DNA from: Candidatus Doudnabacteria bacterium | GTDB lineage: Bacteria > Patescibacteriota > Doudnabacteria > UBA920 | Length of the DNA: 40,359 nt | Assembly: GCA_023245995.1 (NCBI GenBank) | Contig: JAHFJH010000008.1 | Span: 1-40,359, forward strand | Direction: 5' to 3' | In this document: one piece after another, positions 1,639 to 14,870 of the stretch | Layout of the letters: the number at the start of each line of letters is the position of its first letter | Numbering within the stretch: position 1 is the first letter of the stretch | Notes under the pieces: model-generated | Database searches by the model: none | What the model was told of the DNA's origin: nothing | The model's input: only the letters and a program-made list of their open reading frames with translations | Translations under genes and position numbers: made by a program

Positions 1639-1712
1639 CATGCTACTATGTAGCTTAGCTTTAGCATGTATTTTATAGTTGGAAAGCTAAGGACTATATG
1701 AAATTTATATGA
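1639..1712 (+). promoter_or_regulatory. recO leader: competing inverted repeats and a 4-codon micro-ORF overlapping the recO start
   Basis: CATGCTA (1639-1645) pairs with TAGCATG (1662-1668), and CTTAGCTTT (1654-1662) pairs with AAAGCTAAG (1683-1691), so the two stems compete. An AAGGA sequence then precedes ATG AAA TTT ATA TGA (1698-1712), whose stop overlaps the recO ATG as ATGA. This could couple recO translation to re-initiation. The sequence elements are seen directly; the regulatory role is inference. Confidence 0.4.
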
Positions 1713-2443
1713 GATATGACGAACGGGTAACTGCCATTATTTTAAAGCAACAAGCTATGAATGAAGCGGATGTGTTGCTAACACTATACACGGAAGAGTA
1801 TGGTAAACTTCGTGCGCTTGCAACTGCTGTGCGAAGACCTTCAAGCAAACTTTCTTATGCTTTGCAGCCAGGCAGTCTGTTCGAGGCTCGTTTAGTTGGT
1901 CGCACAATGCATGATTTGTTAAAGTTAGCAGGTGCCACACCTAAACATATCTATATTCGTGAGTTGTCAGAAATTCGGGGGGTGTTGCTGTTTTGGATTC
2001 AGGAAGTTGTGTTAAGAGCCACTCCAGACGCAGAGACAAATTCAACCTTGTTTAAAATTGCCCTTGAATATATGCAGGCTGTTGGTATTTTCTCAGAAAT
2101 TTATGAACATAGTAAGCCTTTGATAATTGCTACAAGCGCGCAAATATTGCAGGCATTGGGCAGTGCTGTTCACGAGCCAGCAGAAGAGCCAAAATTTTAT
2201 AGTGTATTTGGAGGTGGCTTTTTTCTAGAACCTAACTCGGCTGATGCCACAGCCATAACACACGACCTATGGGAGCGCTATAGTAAGCTTGTTCGAACTC
2301 CGTTGCTAGAAGCTGTAAGTTTGCAAACACAGCCTGAAGATGCTTTGCTTTTAAGTGTACTCTCGCGCAGTTTAGAGCAATATATAGACCGAACTATTCG
2401 TACTGGTGCCTTTTTTGGTGGTATACTTAATTCAGAAGCATAA
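1709..2443 (+). CDS. recO: DNA repair protein RecO
   Basis: RecO anneals complementary single strands and, with RecR, loads RecA onto SSB-coated DNA in the RecF pathway. The 244-aa length is normal for the family. The N-terminal OB-fold region carries the expected pattern: AIILKQQAMNEADVLL, then YTEEYGKLRALATAVRRPSSK and the later LxPG. A helical C-terminal region follows. I do not see the CxxC zinc motif found in many RecO proteins, so this is a zinc-less variant like others in the family. The ATG at 1709 overlaps the stop of a 4-codon micro-ORF that carries the only plausible Shine-Dalgarno sequence. The next gene starts after a tract of 7-nt periodic sequence. Confidence 0.9.
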   Translation: MRYDERVTAIILKQQAMNEADVLLTLYTEEYGKLRALATAVRRPSSKLSYALQPGSLFEARLVGRTMHDLLKLAGATPKHIYIRELSEIRGVLLFWIQEVVLRATPDAETNSTLFKIALEYMQAVGIFSEIYEHSKPLIIATSAQILQALGSAVHEPAEEPKFYSVFGGGFFLEPNSADATAITHDLWERYSKLVRTPLLEAVSLQTQPEDALLLSVLSRSLEQYIDRTIRTGAFFGGILNSEA

Positions 2444-2513
2444 ATTAAGAATTATGGTTTAATTCCTAATTTATAATTAGCAATTACTAATTTCCAACCT
2501 GTAATTATGGAAA
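2427..2513. repeat. Degenerate heptamer tract filling the recO / DUF11 gene gap
   Basis: Read in sevens from about 2441, the sequence is TAAATTA, AGAATTA, TGGTTTA, ATTCCTA, ATTTATA, ATTAGCA, ATTACTA, ATTTCCA, ACCTGTA, ATTATGG. The rough consensus is ATTNNNA. It includes the recO stop and the start codon of the next gene. The same consensus recurs inside the helicase gene at 7611-7645. Confidence 0.65.
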
Positions 2514-4324
2514 ATTTTACTAAGCAACCATTGGGCAATTCGTCCTTAGATCAAGATACAAGAGATAAAATTTCACCTGCGCAAGATGCATCTCCTGCTG
2601 TAAGCGGACTTGAGTCACAGGGTACTGGGTTTTTTGCAAAAAACAAATGGTTTGTATTGGTTTTTGTGCTCGCCATTGTTGTTATTGGGATTTTAACCTT
2701 ATTTATTTTTAGAAAACCTAATAGCGTAAAAGAAGGCAAGGTTACAATTGATTTAGTTGTGCCTTCTGAAGTACCAAGTAGCGGTGAGGCGGTTGTGCGA
2801 GCAGTTGTTTCTAATAACGACAGCACAACCTTAACTCATTTAGAGTTAGAAATGGTATATCCAAGTGGTACAGTGTTTGTAAGTAGTAATCCAGAGGCAA
2901 AGAATTTGTCTGGAACCTTGTACAGTTTGCCAGATATATCTCCTGGGGCGAATGTTGCAACACTTATTAAACTAAAATTTGAAGGCGGTGTAGGAACAAA
3001 TGCTCCTATAACAGCCAGGCTGAAGTATTCTCTTGCAGGTTCTAGTGCAAGCTTTACCAAGGAGCAGCAAACTACGGCCAAGTTGGTCGCCGCAGGAGTA
3101 AGTGTGGAGCTACAAGGCCCAGTTACGGCAACAAATGCTCAGCTTGTTAGTTATACCGTGCATTATGCTAACCAAAGTACGGAAGGTTTTGACAGGGTAA
3201 GAGTAAAATTGGGTTTTCCGTCGAGTTTTCAGTTTGCTTCTGCAACTCCTGCATCGACGCAGGGTACCGACACGTGGGATATTGGTCAGCTTGCGCCCAC
3301 AGCTGAAGGCACTATAACCGTTAGTGGAACGTTTTTATCTGCTAGTCTGGGTCAGGGTGTAACTGTTAACGCGAGCGTGCTTGTGCCAGATAAAAACGGT
3401 GGTTATTATGTTCAGGCAGAATCGCAATTTAGCACGTCTATAAGTACGCAACCTTTAGTCGTAACTCAAAGTTTAGATAACGGAGAGCAGACTTCAGTCG
3501 CCGATCCAGGCAATACATTGCAATATAAATTATCCTATCAAAACAACGCATCTGTAGCAGCTCGAGGGGTAAGAATTGTTATGACAATAGACTCTGCGAC
3601 TATGGATACGTCCACTGTGCAAGCAGAGGGAGCTTTAGTTTCTGGAAATACCATTACTTGGAGTGCTGCGTCAAAGTCTGAATTAGAAGTGGTAAATCCA
3701 AACGAGGCAGGTACGGTATTGGTTTCTTTTCGCATTAAGGACCCCCCAGTTAAAGATCGTTCTATTAATCCTGATGTCATAACTAATGTAAAAATAAAGT
3801 CGGATGAGTACGATACTTTTTTGCCGGGTAATAAAATGCAAGTAAAAATTGCTACCAAAGCTCGCCTTGAGGGAACAGTGGCATTTGTTGACGGTCAAAA
3901 ACCGCCTAGAGTTGGCCAACAAAGCAGGTATTCTGTAAGTATAAGTGTAAAAAATACTACTAGTGATGTGACGGGCTCAGATATAGTTATGTTTGTTGCA
4001 ACAGGTGCTGGTAGCTTTGATAAAGCAACGGTAAATAAAGAAGAGGCAAATGCTGTGTCGTTTGATACTTCAACTGGAAAGTTGGTATGGCATGTGGCTA
4101 CGCTCAAAGCACACGTGGGTGAATTCTCTCCAGCAAGAATACTACAATTTACACTTCGTGCTGTTCCAGGCGCAAGCCAGGCAGGTTTACCTTTGCCTTT
4201 GGTAAAGAATATTATTTTTACTGGTACGAACGATTTTACCGCCCAGACTATTACAAAGTCAATTACGCAGTTAACCACTAGCGATACTGCAACGGCAGAT
4301 GCAGGCGGTATAGTTATACAGTAG
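2507..4324 (+). CDS. Membrane-anchored protein with DUF11-like repeats
   Basis: This 605-aa protein has a polar N-terminal stretch of about 45 residues and one strong membrane helix (about 47-68, followed by RKPN). A long extracellular part then carries three or four DUF11/CARDB-like beta-sandwich units. Recognisable signatures are the VSNNDSTTLTHLELEMVYPSG and VHYANQSTEGFDRVRV types, each followed by a W-x-I/V-x-x-L strand. It is a bitopic protein facing outward, and probably part of the cell envelope. It sits 63 bp after recO and 6 bp before the ACT-domain gene, which suggests co-transcription. Its repeats resemble those of the surface protein at the left edge, but its anchor is at the opposite end. 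The ATG at 2507 has no Shine-Dalgarno sequence. Its exact function is unknown. Confidence 0.8.
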   Translation: MENFTKQPLGNSSLDQDTRDKISPAQDASPAVSGLESQGTGFFAKNKWFVLVFVLAIVVIGILTLFIFRKPNSVKEGKVTIDLVVPSEVPSSGEAVVRAVVSNNDSTTLTHLELEMVYPSGTVFVSSNPEAKNLSGTLYSLPDISPGANVATLIKLKFEGGVGTNAPITARLKYSLAGSSASFTKEQQTTAKLVAAGVSVELQGPVTATNAQLVSYTVHYANQSTEGFDRVRVKLGFPSSFQFASATPASTQGTDTWDIGQLAPTAEGTITVSGTFLSASLGQGVTVNASVLVPDKNGGYYVQAESQFSTSISTQPLVVTQSLDNGEQTSVADPGNTLQYKLSYQNNASVAARGVRIVMTIDSATMDTSTVQAEGALVSGNTITWSAASKSELEVVNPNEAGTVLVSFRIKDPPVKDRSINPDVITNVKIKSDEYDTFLPGNKMQVKIATKARLEGTVAFVDGQKPPRVGQQSRYSVSISVKNTTSDVTGSDIVMFVATGAGSFDKATVNKEEANAVSFDTSTGKLVWHVATLKAHVGEFSPARILQFTLRAVPGASQAGLPLPLVKNIIFTGTNDFTAQTITKSITQLTTSDTATADAGGIVIQ

Positions 4325-4330
4325 GGTCAT

Positions 4331-4732
4331 ATGAATAATGAATTGCAAGAAATTATACAAAGCAGTACATTCGAGGTTGTTCCTGGAAGCTATGTTTATG
4401 CACAGGTGAGCACCGTTGGAGATGAGCGAAAGCACTTTTTAGTTGCCCGTGATGCAGACGAAATTACTGTTGTAACCACAGAAGATAATTTGGCCGAAAT
4501 GGATTTGATCGGGCGTAATAAAGATAATTATGCGTTAATTGGTTTGCGTGTGTCTGTGCCTTTTTATTCTGTTGGTTTTTTGGCATTGGTCAGCCAGAAA
4601 ATAGCAGAAGCTGGGATGAATATACTCATTGTCTCCACTTACTCTAAGGACTATATTATGGTAAGGCAAGATTTGTTACAGCAGACGAAGCAGGTCTTGC
4701 TTGGAATTGGGTTTACAGAATACATAAAGTAG
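4331..4732 (+). CDS. ACT-domain protein (ACT_7/CASTOR-like)
   Basis: This is a small 133-aa protein. Its N-terminal half includes FEVVPGSYVYAQV and VARDADEITVVTTED. Its C-terminal half is a ferredoxin-like ACT fold in which VSVPFYSVGFLALVSQKIAEAGMNILIVSTYSKDYIMV matches the ACT_7 family pattern. Proteins of this type usually bind a small effector such as an amino acid and regulate a partner. No catalytic domain is attached, so it is probably a stand-alone sensor. It starts 6 bp after the DUF11 gene and is followed by a strong terminator, so it ends this transcription unit. The ligand cannot be deduced. Confidence 0.8.
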   Translation: MNNELQEIIQSSTFEVVPGSYVYAQVSTVGDERKHFLVARDADEITVVTTEDNLAEMDLIGRNKDNYALIGLRVSVPFYSVGFLALVSQKIAEAGMNILIVSTYSKDYIMVRQDLLQQTKQVLLGIGFTEYIK

Positions 4733-4768
4733 TAGTGTGTATACGTTTAATATTTATAAACTAAATTG

Positions 4769-4812
4769 CTAAAAAACACTTCCTAAATACATGTAGGGAA
4801 GTGTTTTTTTTA
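4769..4812. terminator. Bidirectional intrinsic terminator between convergent genes
   Basis: AAAAAACACTTCC pairs with GGAAGTGTTTTTT across a 12-13 nt loop, with T runs at both ends when read on either strand. It lies between the ACT gene (+) and the LysM/CHAP gene (-), so it can serve both. Confidence 0.85.
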
Positions 4813-4832
4813 GTTTAGAGTATTTAAAATTA

Positions 4833-5879
4833 TTATTGTGGGTATATATAACCAACCACGCTGTCGGCTTCTATTGTTCTATAGCTTTTTACTCCCAGCC
4901 CTTCGTAGTTCATTTCAGAAATGTATATAGTACCTTTGGCAGGGTTAACCGACTCTACAAATGCCACATGTCCGTACCTACCGGCTCGTGAGGTTACAAC
5001 GGCACTTCCTGCAAGCGGTGCTTGCCCAGTTTTGTAGCCGGCTCTTTGGGCGTTTGCAAACCAGTCTTTGGCGTTGCCGTGGAATGTTATTTTCATTTTT
5101 CTTGCTACGTACCAAGTGCAGTTGCCACGAACAAATGTGCTACTGCCTGCTACATCTGGAATGGAAGAATAATTTATACCAACGGTTCGAGCTTTTGCAA
5201 TTGCTTTTGGCGGTGTTGCTACCGAACCACCTGGGCACATAATGTATTGACCCGGCTCTACGCTATCCGCTCCATCTAGTCCGTTATAAGAGATAATTTG
5301 TTCTTCAGAGCATTTAAATTTTCTTGCAATACCAGCAATTGTTGTGTCGTTGTCTGCCAAAACGAGCACGCCCTTAACTGATGGAATAACTAAATACCAT
5401 CCAGGTTTAATGGTGTCGGAAGTCAGGTTGTTTGACCATTTAATAGTGTTAATGTCTATGTCAAACTGTTTAGAAATGGAGCCAAGCGTGTCGCCGCCTT
5501 GTGTTTCGTAAATTTTAATCTGGTTATCTAAAAGTGGTTTTATGCTGTCGGGTATGCTTGTGGCCAAGCCGTCTTCGTCTATGGTGTTAAGCGGACTTTG
5601 AGTTAAGCTAGTACCTGCTACCTGCGTGGAACTGTTTGGCACTATTTGTTCGTTGGCTCTGGCTTTGGTAATTAGTCCATTTGAGTCTGTGACAGTCAGA
5701 GTAGTGCTAAACAATTTGCTGTAGAGAGCGGGGTTGGCGCTTGGTTGTTTGTAGAGGGTTGCAGCTGCCAAACTTTCATCTTGTTTTAGTATGCCTTGGT
5801 GGCCCATACTAATGTTGGCTAGAATAACAACTAAAGCGAGTGTAATAAGTGCAGCCTCGTCGGCAAATTTCATAGCCAT
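4833..5879 (-). CDS. LysM-CHAP cell-wall hydrolase (putative)
   Basis: The 348-aa protein has an N-terminal membrane helix (about 9-24) and a disordered linker. Two LysM peptidoglycan-binding modules follow (about 123-166, YETQGGDTLGSISKQF; and 168-215), then a C-terminal CHAP amidase/peptidase domain (about 245-345). The catalytic cysteine is in RGNCTWYVA (Cys254) and the histidine in GHVAFVE (His304); N324 of SEMNYEG is a likely third residue. It probably cleaves peptidoglycan peptides or amide bonds outside the membrane, for wall remodelling or during contact with a host cell. Beyond the ATG at 5879 the same frame stays open for 88 more codons, to a TAA at 6146, without ATG, GTG or TTG, so the true N-terminus is uncertain. 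Confidence 0.87.
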   Translation of the reverse strand: MAMKFADEAALITLALVVILANISMGHQGILKQDESLAAATLYKQPSANPALYSKLFSTTLTVTDSNGLITKARANEQIVPNSSTQVAGTSLTQSPLNTIDEDGLATSIPDSIKPLLDNQIKIYETQGGDTLGSISKQFDIDINTIKWSNNLTSDTIKPGWYLVIPSVKGVLVLADNDTTIAGIARKFKCSEEQIISYNGLDGADSVEPGQYIMCPGGSVATPPKAIAKARTVGINYSSIPDVAGSSTFVRGNCTWYVARKMKITFHGNAKDWFANAQRAGYKTGQAPLAGSAVVTSRAGRYGHVAFVESVNPAKGTIYISEMNYEGLGVKSYRTIEADSVVGYIYPQ

Positions 5880-6548
5880 TTTATGCCATGGTAAACGGGC
5901 CAGTCTGGTTGCAGGATAGGTAATTAAGCTATCTTTACTTATGTGTTTAAAGCTGTTTGTTGTTTTTTTAAACAGAGTTCTAACAAAATTTGAGTAAAAT
6001 AAAATGTCAAAACTCTTTGTCTTGACGGGTTCTTGACTGAGCCGAGTAATGCGTATGTGGTTGTTTGGTAATTTAAACTTGGAAATACAATTCCTTTTCT
6101 CGTGCTGTTCAGTCGAATGATAATAAAAGCAGAAAGGTCGACTTTAGCACGCATGTCACAAACTTAAAAAGTACTAGATTTCTTTTTGTGCTATTTGTAG
6201 TACCTACGAAGTTTGAACAGTGGAGCCTGCGAGTTGAAAAATTTCTTTATGAAAATTCTTTTAGCATTTGCAGGTGACATATTTAATTTTAGTTAGGAGA
6301 TAGGTAACTATCAAGCACAGACTGCCAATGTTTCTTTATATGCGCTAATTTAAGCAAAAAAAACTATTTTAGTTCTTAAGTATGCGGTAATTTGGCTTTT
6401 TTGCGTATTTATTGGCGTTTATGTAGGAAATACTAATTAGAAGTTAAATCGTGTATTATGTAGTGGTGTTTTACGCGTACATTTTTTAAAGTTTATATTT
6501 TTTGATACCTAGAATTTTTAAATTGAAAGTGTTTTGGATTTATAAAAT
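5880..6548. other. Gene-poor AT-rich gap between the LysM-CHAP gene and the helicase gene
   Basis: This is the longest stretch in the window without a convincing gene. The frame of the LysM-CHAP gene stays open on the minus strand to 6146 but lacks a normal start codon. The 71-aa minus ORF at 5939-6154 looks random. GTACTA/TAGTAC forms a short hairpin near 6170-6215. TATTAT at 6454 could be a -10 for the helicase gene, but I see no good -35. No RNA gene or long repeat is evident. Confidence 0.5.
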
Positions 6549-8828
6549 ATGTTTGAGAATTTGGACTTAAAAAGTTTAAACGAGAGACAAAGGTTGGCTG
6601 TAACTGCTCCAATGAAACCTGCGTTAGTGCTTGCTGGCGCTGGTAGCGGTAAGACCCGCGTTCTTGCGTTTCGTATTGCGTACGTTATTGACATGGGTTG
6701 GGTTAGCCCCGAACATATATTAGCACTGACTTTTACAAATAAGGCTGCCCGTGAAATGCAGAGCCGTGTGCTCGCTTTGCTTGGTGGAAAGTCCGGACAA
6801 CAGACTGCCGACAACAGACTACCTACTACCAAAACTCCGACTTTAAGTACATTTCACAGTTTGGGTGTGAGAATTTTGCGACAACATGGCTATTTGTTAA
6901 ATTTACCAAAAACTTTTGCAATATACGACAAAGAAGATCAACTCAAAGTTTTAAAAGACGTTTATGTGGAAAAAGAGCTGGATGAGAAGATAAAGCCTCA
7001 GGCAGTCCTTCATTTTATTCATACCGTTAAAAACAATGGCGTGGCACCCGAAGTTTTGGCTGAGCAGTATAGCGGGTATATGTCTCAAACTTTTTTGCAA
7101 GGTTATTATGGCTACCAAGCAGCGCTACTAGCTCAGGGTGGGGTGGATTTAGACGACTTGTTAGTGTTGCCACTTAAGCTCTTGTCTAGTTTTGAAGAGG
7201 TCCGTAGTTACTATCGGGCACGTTTTAGGTACATATTAGTAGACGAGTACCAAGATACAAATCCCGTACAGTATGCTCTGCTTAGGCAATTATCTCCGCC
7301 CGCGGCTATTTTTGTGGTGGGCGACGACGCACAAAGTATTTACGGTTTTAGAGGTAGCGATATAACTAACATATTAAATTTTGAACATGATTTTCCAGAG
7401 GCAGAGGTATTTGTTTTAGACCAGAACTATCGTTCCACCCAGAATATTTTGGCTGTATCTGGGGCGGTTTTAAAACATAGTAAAGAACAAAAACCAAAAG
7501 TTTTGTGGACAGAAAATTCTGCAGGGCAGAGGGTTGTGGTTCGAGAGTTTGCCAATGAAACAGCGGAGGCCAATTTTGTGGTCCGTACTATAGTAGAGCT
7601 GGCCAGTGGAATTACGAATCATGATTCACGAATTATGAATCAAGCTGAAGAAAGTCCTGAATTAAGTTTTGATAGTGAATTAGATACTGAAGAACGGCCG
7701 TTTTCTGTGCTTGATTATATGTTGGAACAGAGAAATGCAAAGTCAAAAGGTAAAAGTCAAAATTATAGCACTGTTCATTTACCAGAAAAGCATGCTCCTT
7801 TGAGTCAGTTTGCTATTTTGTATCGCACGCATGCTCAGTCACGAGCGCTTGAAGACGCCCTTTTGGCTTCAGGGGTGCCGTATAAAATTGTCGGAGGTGT
7901 GCGCTTTTACGATAGGCAAGAAGTAAAGGACGCTTTAAGTTATTTGCGCGTTTTGCAAAACATTCGAGATTTTGTTGCACTGACGCGCACCTTTACTGCA
8001 CCCCCAAAAGGCATAGGTGACAAAACCGGTAGTTTGGTTAAGGCGCTTATATTAAAAAATGAAGAATTAGAAACAAACCAACTTGCAAGTGTTGAGGGTG
8101 AACTGGAGGGTAGCCGGCAAGTGGGCATTTTGGGCAACATTCTAATGTTTAAAAAATTGCGCAAAGAAGTATTAACGGCTTTGCCTGGAGTTAAAAGCAG
8201 GACATCTGTAGTAAGTTTCTTTGACATGTTGTTGTCTTGGCTTGAGGCAGATACCATATTGCCTTTACACGAGTTGCTTATGCGCATTATTCACGAGTCG
8301 GGACTTGTTAAATATTTTAGCGATGGTACAGAAACAGGGGATGCGCGGGTAGAAAACTTAGTAGAGTTGGTTTCGGTTGCGAAAAAGTTTAGTCAAGAGG
8401 GTTGGCAGGATGCCTTGCCAAAATTTTTGGAAGAGGTAGCGCTTGTTAGTGATGTAGATCAAATAAGTGATGAACATGATGTTGTAACACTTATGACCTT
8501 GCACTCTGCAAAGGGTTTAGAGTTTGACACGGTATTTTTTACAGGTTTAGAAGAAGGACTACTGCCACACAGCAGAAGTATGCAAGACGAGGCCGCTTTG
8601 GCGGAGGAAGTGCGGTTGGCTTATGTAGGTGTAACTCGTGCCAAACAGAAATTGTACATGACTTATGTCATTATGCGTGGCTTGTTTGGTGAGTCGCGCT
8701 TGGCAGTGCCTTCAAGGCTTCTTCGCGAATTACCCGAGCACTCAGTAGAATGGAGAGGAAGACCTAGGTTTTTACCCAATTCAGATAGCCCAAACAGTGG
8801 CGTGACGTATGAGCCGTTTGTAGAGTAA
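6549..8828 (+). CDS. pcrA: UvrD/PcrA/Rep-family DNA helicase
   Basis: This superfamily 1 3'-5' DNA helicase acts in repair and in removing proteins and nascent strands from DNA. It has 759 aa, somewhat long but normal for UvrD/PcrA. Visible motifs in order are LNERQRLAV (Q motif), Walker A GAGSGKT (30-36), TFTNKAAREM (Ia), DEYQDTNP (232-239), QSIYGFRG (262-269), QNYRST (292-297), and late motifs TLHSAKGLEFDTVF and RLAYVGVTRAKQKLY. The ATG at 6549 lacks a Shine-Dalgarno sequence. Three short low-complexity insertions (about residues 83-95, 355-366 and 396-407) coincide with 7-nt periodic DNA and interrupt otherwise conserved sequence. Whether it is UvrD or PcrA by function cannot be told from the sequence. 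Confidence 0.93.
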   Translation: MFENLDLKSLNERQRLAVTAPMKPALVLAGAGSGKTRVLAFRIAYVIDMGWVSPEHILALTFTNKAAREMQSRVLALLGGKSGQQTADNRLPTTKTPTLSTFHSLGVRILRQHGYLLNLPKTFAIYDKEDQLKVLKDVYVEKELDEKIKPQAVLHFIHTVKNNGVAPEVLAEQYSGYMSQTFLQGYYGYQAALLAQGGVDLDDLLVLPLKLLSSFEEVRSYYRARFRYILVDEYQDTNPVQYALLRQLSPPAAIFVVGDDAQSIYGFRGSDITNILNFEHDFPEAEVFVLDQNYRSTQNILAVSGAVLKHSKEQKPKVLWTENSAGQRVVVREFANETAEANFVVRTIVELASGITNHDSRIMNQAEESPELSFDSELDTEERPFSVLDYMLEQRNAKSKGKSQNYSTVHLPEKHAPLSQFAILYRTHAQSRALEDALLASGVPYKIVGGVRFYDRQEVKDALSYLRVLQNIRDFVALTRTFTAPPKGIGDKTGSLVKALILKNEELETNQLASVEGELEGSRQVGILGNILMFKKLRKEVLTALPGVKSRTSVVSFFDMLLSWLEADTILPLHELLMRIIHESGLVKYFSDGTETGDARVENLVELVSVAKKFSQEGWQDALPKFLEEVALVSDVDQISDEHDVVTLMTLHSAKGLEFDTVFFTGLEEGLLPHSRSMQDEAALAEEVRLAYVGVTRAKQKLYMTYVIMRGLFGESRLAVPSRLLRELPEHSVEWRGRPRFLPNSDSPNSGVTYEPFVE
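6797..6838. repeat. Heptamer tract 1 inside the helicase gene
   Basis: The DNA reads ACAACAG, ACTGCCG, ACAACAG, ACTACCT, ACTACCA, AAACTCC, a seven-base period with an exact repeat of the first unit. It encodes the low-complexity segment QQTADNRLPTTK between helicase motifs Ia and Ib. Confidence 0.65.
7611..7645. repeat. Heptamer tract 2 inside the helicase gene
   Basis: The DNA reads ATTACGA, ATCATGA, TTCACGA, ATTATGA, ATCAAGC, a degenerate seven-base period. It encodes ITNHDSRIMNQ, which does not look like helicase core. The consensus resembles the tract between recO and the DUF11 gene. Confidence 0.7.
7736..7770. repeat. Heptamer tract 3 inside the helicase gene
   Basis: The DNA reads TGCAAAG, TCAAAAG, GTAAAAG, TCAAAAT, TATAGCA, again period seven. 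It encodes the lysine/serine-rich NAKSKGKSQNYS. It lies about 90 bp after tract 2 but has a different consensus. Confidence 0.65.
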
Positions 8829-8895
8829 ACTATGTGTATACATGTATGTTAAGCTGACTATTTGTAATTGTGATAAATAATTTTTAAGGTATTCA

Positions 8896-9768
8896 ATGAC
8901 TGTAAGTGAATTAAAAAATCTATTAAATCGGTACAAGTTAAAGCCAAACAAAACTTTTGGTCAACATTTTTTGTTAGACGATTCCGTTTTGGATTCTATG
9001 GTAGAAGCGGCAGACGTGAAGTCTACAGATATAGTTTTAGAGGTAGGGCCTGGTATTGGAAATTTGACTAGCAAGCTTGTAGCTGTAGCTGGAAACGTGC
9101 TGGCCGTAGAAAAAGACACCTCACTTGAGTTTCTTTTGAGTGATATTACCAATAAACATAAAAATTTAAGTGTCGAATATGCAGATATAATGCGGTTTAA
9201 CTTTACTCAGGCACTCAAGACTTTAAAGGTAGCTCACAAATTGAAGCCAGGACGGTTGCGCTATAAAGTTGTTGCAAATATTCCGTACTATGTTACAGGA
9301 AAGTTACTACAACTTTTTTTGCGAGCTCAGGAAAAACCAGAAAGTATAACTGTTTTGGTGCAGGCGGAAGTCGCGAAGAACATGGTGGCAGAACACGGGT
9401 CCATGAACCTACTTGGTCTTTCTGTGCAACTAATTGGTAAACCAAAGTTCGTTTTGCCTGTGCCTGCAAGTAGTTTTTATCCTGCGCCCAAAGTAGATAG
9501 TGCGATAGTGCATATAAATATTCCTGAAAAGCCTTTATTTGCTAACGTGGACGAGGGGTTTTTGTTTCGTGTTGCGAAGGCTTGTTTTTCGGGTAAACGC
9601 AAACAAATTCATAACAGCCTTGCTTCCGGTTTTAGGCTCTCGAAGTTGGAAACAGATAAGATTTTAGAACAGGCTCACATTGCTCCGAGTATAAGACCAC
9701 AAGAACTCTCTGTAGAAGATTTTGTTCGGTTAGCAAAAATTTACAATGAATTAGTTAACCACAGTTGA
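8896..9768 (+). CDS. rsmA: 16S rRNA dimethyladenosine transferase RsmA (KsgA)
   Basis: RsmA uses SAM to dimethylate two adjacent adenosines in the 3'-terminal hairpin of 16S rRNA, a late check on 30S assembly. The 290-aa protein shows the family start (NKTFGQHFLLDD, 18-29), the SAM-binding motif EVGPGIGNL (49-57), a second acidic motif VEKD, and the catalytic NIPYYV (128-133). The SFYPAPKVDSAIV and KACFSGKRKQIHNSL motifs of the C-terminal helical domain follow. AAGG lies 7 nt before the ATG, one of the few reasonable ribosome-binding sites in the window. It follows the helicase gene by 67 bp on the same strand. Confidence 0.95.
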   Translation: MTVSELKNLLNRYKLKPNKTFGQHFLLDDSVLDSMVEAADVKSTDIVLEVGPGIGNLTSKLVAVAGNVLAVEKDTSLEFLLSDITNKHKNLSVEYADIMRFNFTQALKTLKVAHKLKPGRLRYKVVANIPYYVTGKLLQLFLRAQEKPESITVLVQAEVAKNMVAEHGSMNLLGLSVQLIGKPKFVLPVPASSFYPAPKVDSAIVHINIPEKPLFANVDEGFLFRVAKACFSGKRKQIHNSLASGFRLSKLETDKILEQAHIAPSIRPQELSVEDFVRLAKIYNELVNHS

Positions 9769-9791
9769 TTTTTTAGTTTATATTAATTTTG

Positions 9792-9800
9792 TGGTATAAT
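9792..9800 (+). promoter_or_regulatory. Extended -10 promoter for the lipoprotein gene
   Basis: TGGTATAAT is a perfect -10 hexamer with the TGN extension, 36 nt before the ATG at 9836. A weak -35 (TTAGTT) lies 16 nt upstream. The transcript may continue into the cysteine-rich repeat gene. Confidence 0.65.
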
Positions 9801-9835
9801 ATATTTGCTATATTTAAATAAATAAGAAATAAACT

Positions 9836-10429
9836 ATGTTAAAACAAAAGAGGCTACAAAAAATTATTGTTTTTATGATTGGGGTTTCCCTCTTGGCTGT
9901 TGGCTGTTCAAAAAAGAAAGAGCAGGCGCCCGTGACATCTACGACAAAGATTGGGGAAAATGGTTCTAAGGTGGTTGTATCTACAAATATCCCAAGCGGT
10001 TGGGTGAATTTTGTTTCTGGAGATAATGTGAATTTTGATATCGCCATGCCTAAAACATGGGTAGTGGATGACGTTAGTCAGGAAAACCACTTTATTATCC
10101 GTTCCAGTGCCGGTGCTACTGGTGCTAAGGCTGGCGACTCTTTGATGATATTTAATGTAAATAAGTTAAGCGCTAAGTCTTTGGCAGAGCAGGTAGTGGC
10201 TGACACCAAGGACGGGAAGAATGTAAGTACAGCTACTTATGGTAAAACAAATACTGGTCTTGAATATGCCTTTGTTCGCTATACAGATACCGCGAGTACG
10301 GTAAAGTCTTGGTCGGCATATGCTGTTGCAACAGGGCTTGGAAGTTATGTGTCTATTAAAACAGCTACAAATGGTGGGGACGAGGTCGCTTCGCAGATTG
10401 TGAAAACTGTAAGAGTGTGGAAGCGTTAA
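9836..10429 (+). CDS. Predicted lipoprotein, unknown function
   Basis: The 197-aa product begins with a basic n-region (MLKQKRLQK), a hydrophobic core and a lipobox LLAVGC, with Cys24 as the lipidated residue. It is therefore probably exported and anchored to the outer face of the membrane. The mature part is an alpha/beta domain of about 140 residues. SGWVNFVSGDNVNFDIAMPKTW and the later GLEYAFVRYTD suggest a PsbP/DUF1795-like fold, but only weakly. It has its own extended -10 promoter and is followed after 20 bp by the cysteine-rich secreted protein, so the two may be expressed together. I do not recognise a specific function. Confidence 0.75.
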   Translation: MLKQKRLQKIIVFMIGVSLLAVGCSKKKEQAPVTSTTKIGENGSKVVVSTNIPSGWVNFVSGDNVNFDIAMPKTWVVDDVSQENHFIIRSSAGATGAKAGDSLMIFNVNKLSAKSLAEQVVADTKDGKNVSTATYGKTNTGLEYAFVRYTDTASTVKSWSAYAVATGLGSYVSIKTATNGGDEVASQIVKTVRVWKR

Positions 10430-10449
10430 AATAATATTATAAAAAGTAC

Positions 10450-12435
10450 ATGCTTATGAAACAAAAACTATATTTTTCCGTTGGCGCTTCCGTAGGTATT
10501 TTAGGGCTGTTTATTGCCAGCGTGTTTGTATATACAGCGCCTAATGTATATGCCGAAGATTGTTTTGGCAGTCCTACGGCTTGCGCTACACCACCCACAG
10601 TAAATAATTTTGTCTCCCAGTGTCCAGATGGACAAGTTAACTCTGGCAACTCTGGTAGAGGAGCAAACGCTACACCAAACTGTACACCTTGCCCACCAAA
10701 TACAGTTAAGACGCTCATTTATGGTTCTGAGGCATGTCTTCCACCTGGGTACGTACCTGTGTATAGTTTTGACCCAAACATATTTCAAATCGGACAAAGT
10801 GGTGAAATTTGTCGTAAAGACGGACAACACTTTACCGGTGCCATTGGAAACAGACTACCTACCCGTAAGTACGACTGCTGTGGTATAGGTGTAAGACAAA
10901 ATAGAACTGCAGGAAATAGCTTTGACTATGTGTGTGAAAATGGTGGCGCTCCAGGTACTATTCCAGTTCCGACTGCTTTGGGCGGAAGTGGCTCTGGAGG
11001 CTCCGGAAGCGGCGGTGGAGGTAGTGGTTCTGGTGGCGGCGGAAATAACGGCGGGTTTGTTTCCCAGTGTCCAGACGGACAAGTTAACTCTGGTAACTCT
11101 GGTAGAGGCGCAAACGCCACACCAAACTGTACACCTTGTCCACCAAACACAGTAAAAACTCTTATCTATGGTTCTGAGGCATGTCTTCCACCTGGATATA
11201 CGCCAAATTACAGTTTTAACACAGAAGTATTTCAAATTGGTCAAAGTGGTGAAATTTGTCGCAAAGACGGTCAGCATTTTACTGCAGCCATTGGGGACAG
11301 GTTTCCCACTCGTAAGTATGATTGTTGTGGTTTAGGCATAAGACAAAATAGAACTGCAGGAAACAGTTACGATTATGTATGTGAAAATGGAGGTAGTGGT
11401 GGTGTAATACCTACTCCAATATCAGGTGGAGGTGGCGGAAGCGGCGGTGGAGGTAGTGGTTCTGGTGGTGGTGGAAATAATGGTGGGTTTGTCTCCCAGT
11501 GTCCAGATGGACAAGTTAACTCTGGCAACTCTGGTAGAGGCGCAAACGCTACACCAAACTGTACACCTTGCCCACCAAATACAGTTAAGACGCTCATTTA
11601 TGGTGGTGAGTCATGTCAGGTGCCTGGCTATGTTCCAACATATAGTTTTAATACAGACGTCTTCCAAATCGGACAAAGTGGTGAAATTTGCCGCAAAGAC
11701 GGTCAGCATTTTACTGCAGCCATTGGAAACAGACTGCCTACCCGTAAGTACGACTGCTGTGGTATAGGTGTAAGACAAAATAGAACTGCAGGAAATAGCT
11801 TTGACTATGTGTGTGAAAATGGTGGACCTCCCGGCACTGTTGGTAATTTAGGCGCAGGCGCAGGCGCTGGTAGTGGATATTTAGCTTCATGTATAGGCGG
11901 GGGTAAAGCAGATAAAAATGATCCAGGTATTGGGGTAGAGGTGAAGGCTGATGGAACCATTAGCGCGAGCGTTGAACTTTCCGGCATTACTGGTGCTGTA
12001 ATAAAAATAGATGGCAAAGTTGCAACAGGGAAAAACTTTGCTCTCTCAGCTGGGCAAGTACTAACAGTAACTGTTGGGACAAATACTTACACAGCCGACA
12101 CGGATGGGCTAAAACCGGGTGAGTCTATGTCTGTCCTTATTCCTATGCCGTGCATTAAGGTAAACCCTCAAACAGAAGAGCAGGCTCAAATGGATGAGCC
12201 GGAATTGGAAGCATTCATTAACGGCGATGGTATTGTGAAATCTGGTATTGCTGCTGGAACTTTCCAAATATGGTACATGGTAAAAGGGGATAAGACTAAC
12301 ATTAAGTGGAAACCGTATACTTCTGTATTTACAGTTCAGGGTAAGGGAGTAATTTCCGCAAAAACAAAGTTTGGCGACGATGAAAGCTTGGTAACTTCTA
12401 CAAGTTTTGACGCCACCCCTCCCAAAAAGGAATAA
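10450..12435 (+). CDS. Secreted protein with three cysteine-rich repeats joined by Gly/Ser linkers
   Basis: The 661-aa product has a signal peptide (MKQKLYFSV..., cleavage near VYAED); the second ATG at 10456 is an equally good start. Three near-identical units of about 113 residues follow (54-166, 203-315, 347-459). Each has eight cysteines in the order CPDG, PNC, TPC, EAC/ESC, EIC, DCC, YVC, enough for four disulfides. Units are separated by linkers of almost pure Gly/Ser ending in GGGGNNGG. The C-terminal 200 residues form a different, beta-rich domain (SASVELSGITGAVIKIDGK...) with no membrane segment or sorting motif. It is probably an exported multivalent binding or matrix protein. I recognise no family, and a strong terminator follows. 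Confidence 0.8.
   Translation: MLMKQKLYFSVGASVGILGLFIASVFVYTAPNVYAEDCFGSPTACATPPTVNNFVSQCPDGQVNSGNSGRGANATPNCTPCPPNTVKTLIYGSEACLPPGYVPVYSFDPNIFQIGQSGEICRKDGQHFTGAIGNRLPTRKYDCCGIGVRQNRTAGNSFDYVCENGGAPGTIPVPTALGGSGSGGSGSGGGGSGSGGGGNNGGFVSQCPDGQVNSGNSGRGANATPNCTPCPPNTVKTLIYGSEACLPPGYTPNYSFNTEVFQIGQSGEICRKDGQHFTAAIGDRFPTRKYDCCGLGIRQNRTAGNSYDYVCENGGSGGVIPTPISGGGGGSGGGGSGSGGGGNNGGFVSQCPDGQVNSGNSGRGANATPNCTPCPPNTVKTLIYGGESCQVPGYVPTYSFNTDVFQIGQSGEICRKDGQHFTAAIGNRLPTRKYDCCGIGVRQNRTAGNSFDYVCENGGPPGTVGNLGAGAGAGSGYLASCIGGGKADKNDPGIGVEVKADGTISASVELSGITGAVIKIDGKVATGKNFALSAGQVLTVTVGTNTYTADTDGLKPGESMSVLIPMPCIKVNPQTEEQAQMDEPELEAFINGDGIVKSGIAAGTFQIWYMVKGDKTNIKWKPYTSVFTVQGKGVISAKTKFGDDESLVTSTSFDATPPKKE
10609..11826 (+). 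repeat. Three tandem ~339-bp coding repeats (10609-10947, 11056-11394, 11488-11826)
   Basis: The units begin with TTTGTCTCCCAG or a near copy and end at GAAAATGG. Units 1 and 3 are almost identical at both ends, while the middle of unit 3 (GGTCAGCATTTTACTGCAGC) matches unit 2, so unit 3 is a mosaic. The spacers are GGT/GGC/AGT codons. These are coding repeats and not a CRISPR array. Confidence 0.85.
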
Positions 12436-12452
12436 ACCTTTGTAAACATTTG

Positions 12453-12489
12453 AAAAAGTCGCCCCTCACTCTAGTGAGAGGCGACTTTT
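12453..12489 (+). terminator. Intrinsic terminator after the cysteine-rich repeat gene
   Basis: AAAAGTCGCC...CTCACT pairs with AGTGAG...GGCGACTTTT, a stem of about 17 bp with a very short loop and one mismatch, ending in a T run. It isolates this unit from the T4SS-like locus. Confidence 0.85.
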
Positions 12490-12595
12490 ATGTTTGCGAA
12501 CCTTATTTTTTAGTTGTGTATATTTGCGCGTCTACAAATATATAAGCTAGCTATTTTAGAGGGCAACTTTACTTGTAGCCTTTTGGCGACTTGTG

Positions 12596-12624
12596 TTGTA
12601 ATGAAGTGGTCTTGATGTTATACT
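12596..12624 (+). promoter_or_regulatory. Promoter of the T4SS-like locus
   Basis: TTGTAA (12596-12601) and TATACT (12619-12624) are separated by exactly 17 nt. TGT just before the -10 gives an extended form. The start codon at 12663 lies 38 nt downstream. This is the best -35/-10 pair ahead of the long plus-strand gene series. Confidence 0.65.
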
Positions 12625-12662
12625 AAAACTAAAGTATTAGAGTGTATTTTAAGAAACAAAAT

Positions 12663-14870
12663 ATGAAAATTGCTAATCAACAAAAATTAATTATTGGAGT
12701 TGCTGGTTTGGCAGTGTTTGTGTTGTTAGTAACTACTGTGTGGAGTCGGCCGGGATTTTTATACCGACCAACGTCACCGGAGAAGCAAGCTGAATTGCAG
12801 AAATCGCAGGCAGACAGTTTAAAGGAGTATAGGGATTATTTGGCCAGTGTTCATACAGACCCAATTGCTAGTAGTTTAATTTTTGCCAAAGTTTTTGATA
12901 CTAAAGCCATAGCCCAAGATATACGTGAACAAATAGGTGCAGACAAGCCCGCAGTTATTCCAAAAGTTAATTTAACAGATCTTAAAGTGAATAACACGGC
13001 CGACCCGGCAGTTATAAAGGATTATGTAAGCAAACTACAAGACAGGCTTGCACAGTACCACGGTGAAGTATTGCCCACCTTAGATAACGTACTTACGGAT
13101 TTTCCAGATGTAGTATTAGCCTCGAATGCCGATAACTCCGCTAAGTCTTTACTTACTGACTTATACAGCCAAAGCGTGCCAAAACCAGCCATTCCTTTGC
13201 ATAGCGCTATTATTAGTGCTTATACAACCAGTGAGCAAATGTTTGCCGACGCAAAGCATGCGGCCTCTTTAGATGCGCCGACCGGACAGTGGAAACATTC
13301 AAATCTAGCCTATGTAACAACTCGCACACAGGTGGATTCTATGAACGATATTGTAAAACAGCTAGAACAGGCATACGCGTTTAACGCAGGAGATACAAGC
13401 GAAGGCGGCGAGTCTAACGTCTTTATCCCCATAGCAAAAGCTGTTCCAGTAAGCGTTATATATAGCATACCGCAAACAGTTTCTAATTTTTTGCGTTCTG
13501 CGCTTGGGGTTGCGATTATAAACGCAACTAGGCAAATGTTGACGAAATATATAACCAACACAGAAAAGAACTATTTAGTTTCTAACTATTTATACTACAC
13601 AAATGCTTTAGTGAACTCTAAATACGCTAACGACTACTTAAATAAAAATATTCCAGACGCAAAAGATCGTGAACAAATAAAAAAGTTTTTACCTGAGTTT
13701 AGTTGTGGTATTCAAAACGAAGCTGAATTACAAAAGCAAATGAGTGCCAAGGCTATAGAGTTTTTAGGTTTCGATCCAAAATACTTAGACCCAGCCGATC
13801 CTGACTTTTATAAAAAAGTGGTAAAAACAGTGGACCCAAAGGCAGACACAACTGGAGATGGTTACCGCAAGTTTTATGAATCTTTAGCTACTGTTGCCAG
13901 TGCATCAGCTAATGGTGCTGCGTTTACAGAGGAAATTGGTCCTACTAAAAAAGTAGCTCAGACCGCGGATTTAAAAAACATTAAAGTTTCGCTAGATAAC
14001 ATTTCCGGCCAGCAGAGAGCTGCCAGCAACGCACTCTTTAACATACCGGTGGCTAACGCTACTACGGGGAGTTTTGGGTTTGATAAGTTTATGACCAACC
14101 AAGTGCTGGGCATACTTAAACAGTTTTTAATTAAGGAAGCGGTGGTTATAAAAGAACAGCAAACTTGCGTAAAAGTACCGGTTGTAAATCCTATTATTCC
14201 AGGAGATTTTACACCAAACAAAATACAGCCGACCGAGGCAGAAGTGCAAGCCTGTACTGACGACCCAACGGGCGAGGAATGTGCAAGAATATATTTCCAG
14301 ACTCCATATGACTCTGGTGGAAATTCGCTACTTACCGACTGTCCGGTGCTACAAAATGTTTCAAACAATGGTCGCATACTTTCGGACGGTTTATACTTAA
14401 ATGTGTCTCCGGCTAGGACAAAAGTTGGAGTCGATATACAGCTGGACTACGGGTTGCAGCCTGCATGTGCTCAAAAGATTGCTGAAAACTTAAAAGCAGG
14501 TTCAACCTTGCAGTTGGGTGTGTATGGCGGAGACTTCTATCCAACTAGTTGTGTGCTTCCAACCGACCCAGAAGACCCTACAAAACAAATTGTAGTAGTA
14601 CAACCATTCTCAACCCAGTTGGAAGGTTCTGTAGTTCTCGACTCAAGGCTTATTGCAACCAGACTGGACAGAAATGGTGTAGAGGTAGTAAAACCCGGAA
14701 GACAAGTGGTAACTGCACTTATAACTGGCGTAGATGATGACGGACATCCTTTGTGTATTAGTGGTACAGTTGAACTACAACTTGACGCACCGAATATTCG
14801 CTCAGAGCTTCCAGCTTCGAGTCCGTTTGCCTTACGACCTTTGGGAAAATTTGCACTGGCTTGGCGGTAA
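12663..14870 (+). CDS. Large bitopic membrane protein, first gene of the T4SS-like locus
   Basis: The ORF track begins at a GTG at 12642, but the ATG at 12663 (MKIANQQKL) is directly followed by the membrane helix (about 7-25 from this start) and is preferred. About 700 exported residues follow. The first half is helical, with K/D/Q-rich segments such as EKQAELQKSQADSLKEYRDY. The second half is cysteine-containing (QQTCVKV, VQACTDD, GEECARIY, LTDCPV, QPACAQK, PTSCVLP), so disulfides outside the membrane are likely. DTTGDGYRKF resembles an EF-hand-type calcium loop but is isolated. It lies 35 bp before the polytopic VirB6-like gene. I recognise no family and infer an extracytoplasmic structural part of the machine from position only. 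Confidence 0.75.
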   Translation: MKIANQQKLIIGVAGLAVFVLLVTTVWSRPGFLYRPTSPEKQAELQKSQADSLKEYRDYLASVHTDPIASSLIFAKVFDTKAIAQDIREQIGADKPAVIPKVNLTDLKVNNTADPAVIKDYVSKLQDRLAQYHGEVLPTLDNVLTDFPDVVLASNADNSAKSLLTDLYSQSVPKPAIPLHSAIISAYTTSEQMFADAKHAASLDAPTGQWKHSNLAYVTTRTQVDSMNDIVKQLEQAYAFNAGDTSEGGESNVFIPIAKAVPVSVIYSIPQTVSNFLRSALGVAIINATRQMLTKYITNTEKNYLVSNYLYYTNALVNSKYANDYLNKNIPDAKDREQIKKFLPEFSCGIQNEAELQKQMSAKAIEFLGFDPKYLDPADPDFYKKVVKTVDPKADTTGDGYRKFYESLATVASASANGAAFTEEIGPTKKVAQTADLKNIKVSLDNISGQQRAASNALFNIPVANATTGSFGFDKFMTNQVLGILKQFLIKEAVVIKEQQTCVKVPVVNPIIPGDFTPNKIQPTEAEVQACTDDPTGEECARIYFQTPYDSGGNSLLTDCPVLQNVSNNGRILSDGLYLNVSPARTKVGVDIQLDYGLQPACAQKIAENLKAGSTLQLGVYGGDFYPTSCVLPTDPEDPTKQIVVVQPFSTQLEGSVVLDSRLIATRLDRNGVEVVKPGRQVVTALITGVDDDGHPLCISGTVELQLDAPNIRSELPASSPFALRPLGKFALAWR

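Follow-up and report, generated by a model that had tools for sequence, protein, structure and literature searches.

Heptamer repeats have been reported from bacteria for decades, and we know of no mechanism that accounts for them. The TAACTGA repeats of marine Beggiatoaceae, which are also present in some Cyanobacteria and Bacteroidetes, consist of one near-perfect unit in direct repeats, most of which lie immediately ahead of start codons (PMC4679880). They are scattered heptamer tandems in scattered taxa, mostly intergenic, with some in ORFs, where they lie mainly at the protein periphery (PMC4679880). The GGGNATC heptamers of Xanthomonas and Nostoc, which are mainly intergenic and have G-quadruplex potential (PMC4692102), and the cyanobacterial STRRs are 7 nt long, degenerate, dispersed and sometimes inverted. 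The Rickettsia palindromic elements (RPE) are described as palindromic selfish DNA of about 150 bp with a family consensus and a conserved peptide, inserted in frame into unrelated housekeeping genes at tolerated positions (PMC10969869). REP/RAYT elements (REPINs) are short palindromes in spacers with many copies, while the Borg tandem repeats are near-perfect, have unit lengths in ORFs that are divisible by three and create disordered protein regions (PMC9879509).

Here, we describe elements with a 7-nt period from a window of 40,359 nt, the whole stretch of DNA that was analysed, from a Candidatus Doudnabacteria genome (contig JAHFJH010000008.1), and from the rest of that genome and its relatives. 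Like the known heptamer repeats, these elements are in excess at lag 7 over other periods and are mostly intergenic (67 of 120 tracts). Unlike the TAACTGA repeats, they have many degenerate units, half of them form inverted pairs and many lie in frame in internal loops; exact tandem dimers of TAACTGA, GGGGATT, GGGGACT and GGGAATC were not found in 832 kb. They form AT-rich hairpins, in contrast to the G-quadruplex potential of the GGGNATC type. An RPE-like insertion in frame was seen in uvrD relative to PcrA (PDB 1pjr) and in argS relative to G001 and G002, but the elements are 25-100 bp in size and defined by their period, and the encoded peptide varies with unit and frame, in contrast to the RPEs. 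With regard to a family consensus, families A and B of the S10 operon have a consensus core, whereas half of the tracts are unpaired and the uvrD tracts of the window do not fold. The genus has no Y1 transposase and no fixed REP sequence, unlike the REP/RAYT systems, and the difference from the Borg repeats is that 7 is not divisible by three and that the units are degenerate. Heptamer repeats and Rickettsia palindromes come close, but neither matches fully, and the elements lack one tested defining feature of each: the four published units are absent in the one case and there is no conserved peptide in the other. We found no description of heptamer hairpins in CPR genomes or in this lineage in a literature search that left subscription journals largely outside.

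The three tracts from which the analysis started are located in a helicase gene of the window:

6549-8828, plus strand: uvrD/pcrA-type DNA helicase gene, host of the three tracts; 759 aa; NCBIfam TIGR01073 pcrA, E 7e-201; PDB 1pjr, 2is1
6796-6838, plus strand: tract 1; units ACAACAG / ACTGCCG / ACAACAG / ACTACCT; about aa 83-97, loop 1 between helicase motifs Ia and Ib
7609-7645, plus strand: tract 2; units GAATTAC / GAATCAT / GATTCAC / GAATTAT; about aa 354-366, variable stretch in domain 2A
7736-7770, plus strand: tract 3; units AAAGTCA / AAAGGTA / AAAGTCA; about aa 396-408, variable stretch in domain 2A, as for tract 2

An earlier note on this DNA had placed three 7-nt tracts in the gene at positions that differ from these by a few bases at most, and they are indeed its three best lag-7 local segments (7609-7640, score 11; 6796-6830, score 10; 7739-7762, score 9), with lag-7 matches of 20/35, 18/28 and 16/28 in tracts 1, 2 and 3. 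The three best lag-14 segments are the same three tracts, with a lag-14 score of 14 for tract 1. The periodicity also survived the codon-aware controls that the note had proposed. The 300 synonymous-codon shuffles, in which protein and codon usage were kept, gave means of 6.9, 5.8 and 5.3 for the top three segments and a top score of at least 11 in 1.3% of cases, and the observed summed score was reached in 0/300 of these and in 0/300 codon-order shuffles. The tracts are nevertheless weak, degenerate and unpaired, with a fold z of about 0, and across the whole window segments at lag 7 are no more frequent than those at lags 6 or 8 (8, 7 and 8 segments at equal threshold).

The note had further taken the tracts to be non-conserved insertions in loops between the helicase motifs, and comparison with structures and relatives bears this out. 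Compared with PcrA (1pjr), the helicase is longer by about 12 residues in loop 1, which separates motifs Ia and Ib, and by about 59 residues in loops 2/3, ahead of the FAILYRTHAQSR motif. Across 29 relatives, the two stretches vary in length (13-40 and 44-83 aa). All three tracts lie inside these variable stretches, which comprise 95 of 759 residues, a placement with a chance of about 0.002. An AlphaFold2 model built from 28 orthologues (mean pLDDT 79.8), the fold of which matches UvrD and PcrA structures, has pLDDT below 50 at residues 81-93, 358-385 and 396-405; tracts 1 and 3 coincide with the first and last of these, and tract 2 reaches into the beginning of the second. In the predicted structure, the tract-bearing stretches are thus three short disordered loops.

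The same stretches carry other heptamers in other genomes, which goes beyond the earlier note. In the 30 helicase orthologues, 16 of 20 lag-7 segments fell within the two variable stretches, which make up 11.4% of the coding length (binomial P 2.5e-12 when segments are treated as independent, which overstates their independence because the orthologues are related, so that the comparison between lags is the safer control). For lags 5, 6, 8, 9, 10, 11 and 13 there was at most one segment each in these stretches, and two for lag 12. The lag-7 segments within the variable stretches come from 10 of the 30 genomes, with units such as CCAACTT, AATTTCC and AGCTACA in loop 1 of L009, L027 and L028, and GAATCAT in a variable stretch of L005. 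Inverted hairpin pairs of the form AAAAGTT...AACTTTC were identified in loop 1 of L011, L023 and L025. Within genus g2, the hairpin is present in L011 and L023, and loop 1 is a 17-aa loop without a hairpin in L010, L012, L014, L018 and L019. Other palindromes take the place of these in some loops (L010, L012, L016 and L030). The peptides encoded in loop 1 differ between genomes, with no conservation found, and the alignment of loop 1 revealed no target-site duplication.

Likewise, the 28 orthologues of argS contain 11 lag-7 segments, as compared to 0, 0, 1, 2, 0 and 0 at lags 5, 6, 8, 9, 10 and 11. Most of these are placed at gap-rich columns, and the units AGGGGCT, AGTGGAC, AAATTCC and AACTAGC occur at overlapping columns in different genomes. 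Further tract-bearing genes of this genome encode UvrC, a class I tRNA synthetase, a UvrD-PDDEXK helicase and a glycosyltransferase, and turnover between congeners was seen in argS, UvrC and the glycosyltransferase. The same heptamer tracts are shared by G000 and G001, with unchanged length, in a gatA-like gene (L066 6963-8475, with L111) and in the class I tRNA synthetase gene (L052 2379-5493, with L104); some tracts therefore predate the split and are not fresh insertions. As a separate observation, the argS gene of three genomes of one genus (G031, G035, G039; L174, L176) has an in-frame TGA within the gene.

A genome-wide search for lag-7 tracts, as suggested in the earlier note, covered 832.6 of 949 kb and showed that heptamer tracts are abundant. 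At a score of at least 12, we identified 101 tracts at lag 7, as compared to 0, 14, 4, 10, 2 and 2 at lags 5, 6, 8, 9, 10 and 11, and none at lag 7 in first-order Markov sequence. The helicase gene is only one of about 30 affected genes: a strong lag-7 tract is present in 30 of 469 genes with a length of at least 200 aa, versus 2, 14, 2, 5, 1 and 1 at the same control lags. At a score of at least 11 (n=120), and with locations assigned by a simple ORF caller, 67 tracts are intergenic, 14 at ORF ends and 39 inside ORFs, while non-coding DNA makes up about 13%. Consensus units are common to tracts on different contigs in 97 pairs, whereas permuting the letters of each unit gives 17 pairs on average and 34 at most. 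The note's suggestion of a single spreading heptamer family holds insofar as heptamers are widespread, but there are many families (AAGCACT, AAGCTAG, AAATCTG, AAATTAG and others). An inverted partner within 120 bp was found for 57 of the 120 tracts, versus 7 of 120 with swapped flanks, and a direct partner for 7 of 120. About half of the tracts are therefore hairpin arms, a feature that the earlier note had not seen.

Two of the helicase tracts can be connected to this population by 9-mers that they share with other tracts of the genome, with a P of 0.02 for tract 2 and of 0.007 for tract 3, and no excess for tract 1 (P 0.33); tracts 2 and 3 thus belong to the heptamer vocabulary of the genome. 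The connection is also seen in a fourth tract of the window, in the spacer after recO:

1709-2443, plus strand: recO (TIGR00613), upstream flank of the spacer tract; stop codon at 2441-2443, ATG of the next ORF at 2507
2443-2497, plus strand: heptamer tract of AATTNNN type in the spacer after recO; lag-7 score 14
2440-2474, plus strand: hairpin of the recO-spacer tract, 14 bp; arms 2440-2454 / 2460-2474; fold z about -2.0

Among the 62 9-mers of this tract, 25 are common to other tracts of the genome, versus 1.1 expected. The earlier note had described it as filling the gap from 2427 to 2513; the tract is real but shorter, with its best segment at 2443-2497.

The elements also occupy the spacers of a ribosomal protein operon. 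Contig C23 (L056, G000) shows the gene order and gene sizes of the S10-spc operon at 2692-13167, an assignment that rests on gene order and on the match of the presumed L2 gene across relatives. Nearly all of its spacers, about 90 bp in length, are heptamer-armed hairpins of two families, A and B, which are multi-copy and have conserved asymmetric consensus cores. In the S10 operons of genomes from the same family (f1), the spacers hold 73 tracts in 34 kb and the genes 6 in 203 kb, and in the genera g3, g6 and g8, which lack the tracts, the median S10 spacers are 21-33 bp. The unit sequences of the S10 hairpins differ entirely even between congeners. Where both flanking genes are on one strand, 13 of 14 copies of families A and B in the operon are oriented along transcription and 1 against it; outside the operon, 4 are with and 2 against transcription, which is uninformative. 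There is no excess of G-U over A-C among the opposed pairs in the S10 stems (25 v 23; 192 v 245), where only the pair-type counts were used because the criterion for hairpins was loose enough to accept 130 of 333 shuffled spacers, and this argues for a process at the DNA level rather than at the RNA level. Searches against Rfam at the gathering threshold recovered only tRNAs in the window and no match in L056, L011, L023 and L025. Two further observations from S10 spacers are that hairpin arms with a 9- and 10-nt period, such as AATTGACAA and AATTAAATAA, occur in L128 (G018) and L126 (G021), and that non-periodic palindromes, TGTCATTCTGAGCG...CGTTCAGGATGACA, replace the heptamer hairpins in several spacers of L129 (G008).

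In the phylum at large, (ACTNNNN)x5 was found in 102 of 287 genomes, versus 24 for an 8-nt period; this genome alone has 36 occurrences, versus 0 for the 8-nt period. G018 carries hairpins of 9 and 10 nt, and with units of 8, 9 or 10 nt in other genomes, a length of 7 is favoured but not obligatory. The constant of the elements is their period, not their sequence. Degenerate octamer arrays of the type (ACTNNNNN)n were observed in G110, G173, G209, G245, G157, G273 and G127, whereas most genomes have heptamers.

The candidates that we searched for, Y1_Tnp, MutS and DinB/IMS, did not include an enzyme responsible for these patterns. Y1_Tnp (PF01797) was not found in G000, G001 and G002, all three genomes of the genus, and a REP/RAYT transposase of Y1 type was rejected for the genus on this basis. 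MutS domain V (PF00488) had no match in 49 of 49 searched members of the order, and was matched only in G049 and G055, both of which belong to other orders. Because MutS is missing throughout the order and IMS is present in most genomes, neither discriminates genomes with heptamers from those without, and MutS and DinB/IMS were rejected as the genes that separate the two.

We considered several other explanations for these findings. A period that arose by chance in loop sequence of low-complexity or helical character would agree with the weakness of the three window tracts and with the even lag counts over the whole window, but it is very improbable given that the shuffles never reached the observed summed score, that the lag specificity extends over 30 helicase and 28 argS orthologues with no loop enrichment at other lags, and that lag 7 is in excess genome-wide. 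Purely local replication slippage, by which each loop enlarged its own sequence in steps of 7 nt and later mutated, without any dispersal between sites, is a more serious possibility, although we still hold it to be doubtful. An excess of heptamers is known from many bacteria and has been attributed to slippage (Mrazek, 2007, as cited in PMC4679880 and PMC4692102). Furthermore, MutS is missing throughout the order, and the unit of tract 1 is not shared with other tracts. However, local expansion does not account for the recurrence of units on different contigs (97 v 17 pairs) or for the multi-copy families A and B with their conserved asymmetric cores, and slippage alone does not produce inverted partners such as those of half of the tracts.

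The families and the inverted pairs could instead suggest a REP/MITE-like palindrome, mobilised by a Y1/RAYT-type transposase into spacers and, in frame, into loops. The multiple palindromic copies, the presence of the hairpin in two genomes of g2 and its absence from five at the same loop, and the other palindromes in these loops elsewhere would all be in line with such a scenario. Yet the Y1 domain was not found in the three genomes of the genus, half of the tracts are unpaired, the loop 1 alignment is without a target-site duplication and the copying of a fixed element does not explain why the unit changes while the period stays, which makes this scenario unlikely. Yet another idea is that the hairpins are functional RNAs, selected in the ribosomal operon for mRNA processing or 3'-end protection, with the copies inside genes as by-products. 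The hairpins in nearly all S10 spacers and their orientation along transcription (13 versus 1) speak for this idea, but the stems show no G-U excess, three genera manage with spacers of 21-33 bp, congeners have entirely different units and there was no Rfam match at the gathering threshold; we therefore consider it quite unlikely.

The interpretation that we favor, and think is probably correct, is that short DNA elements made of 7-nt words, about half of them palindromic, form a population throughout the genome to which the three uvrD tracts belong in degenerate form, and that these elements arise or spread at the DNA level and are tolerated in spacers and loops. In a palindromic element, a run of four or five heptamers would be linked through a short core to its complement. 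Short seeds or hairpins may be dispersed through the genome and lengthened by slippage in whole-heptamer steps, while template switching between the arms could keep these matched, and the absence of mismatch repair might allow both slippage and template switching to go on. The elements would then persist where they are harmless, in spacers, including those of the S10 operon, and in frame in housekeeping proteins, at surface loops that are disordered. In the helicase, loop 1 and the 2A stretch could accordingly be seen as permissive sites where heptamers land and are gained, lost or exchanged. Most likely, the helicase tracts have no function and would simply be tolerated. A bolder hypothesis, which we put forward tentatively and regard as unlikely, is that the elements represent a new class of self-propagating palindromes defined by their period (7 nt, apparently 8-10 in some lineages), the product of an enzyme or replication mode acting on DNA, which would enter the same loops of proteins and the spacers of ribosomal operons time and again.

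The heptamers described here form matched hairpin arms, occupy nearly all spacers of a core operon and, in essential enzymes, recur at the same loops. Neighbouring genera without heptamers provide natural controls, so that an origin by slippage, copying or hairpin synthesis can be tested by comparisons of strains. The elements also show a route from non-coding repeat DNA to disordered protein segments, and such loops, where they appear in structures or alignments from these bacteria, may lack a function. A repeat of a different kind was also observed in the window, where a 432-bp tandem repeat with 2.8 copies spans positions 10609-11823, within an ORF at 10450-12435 (661 aa).
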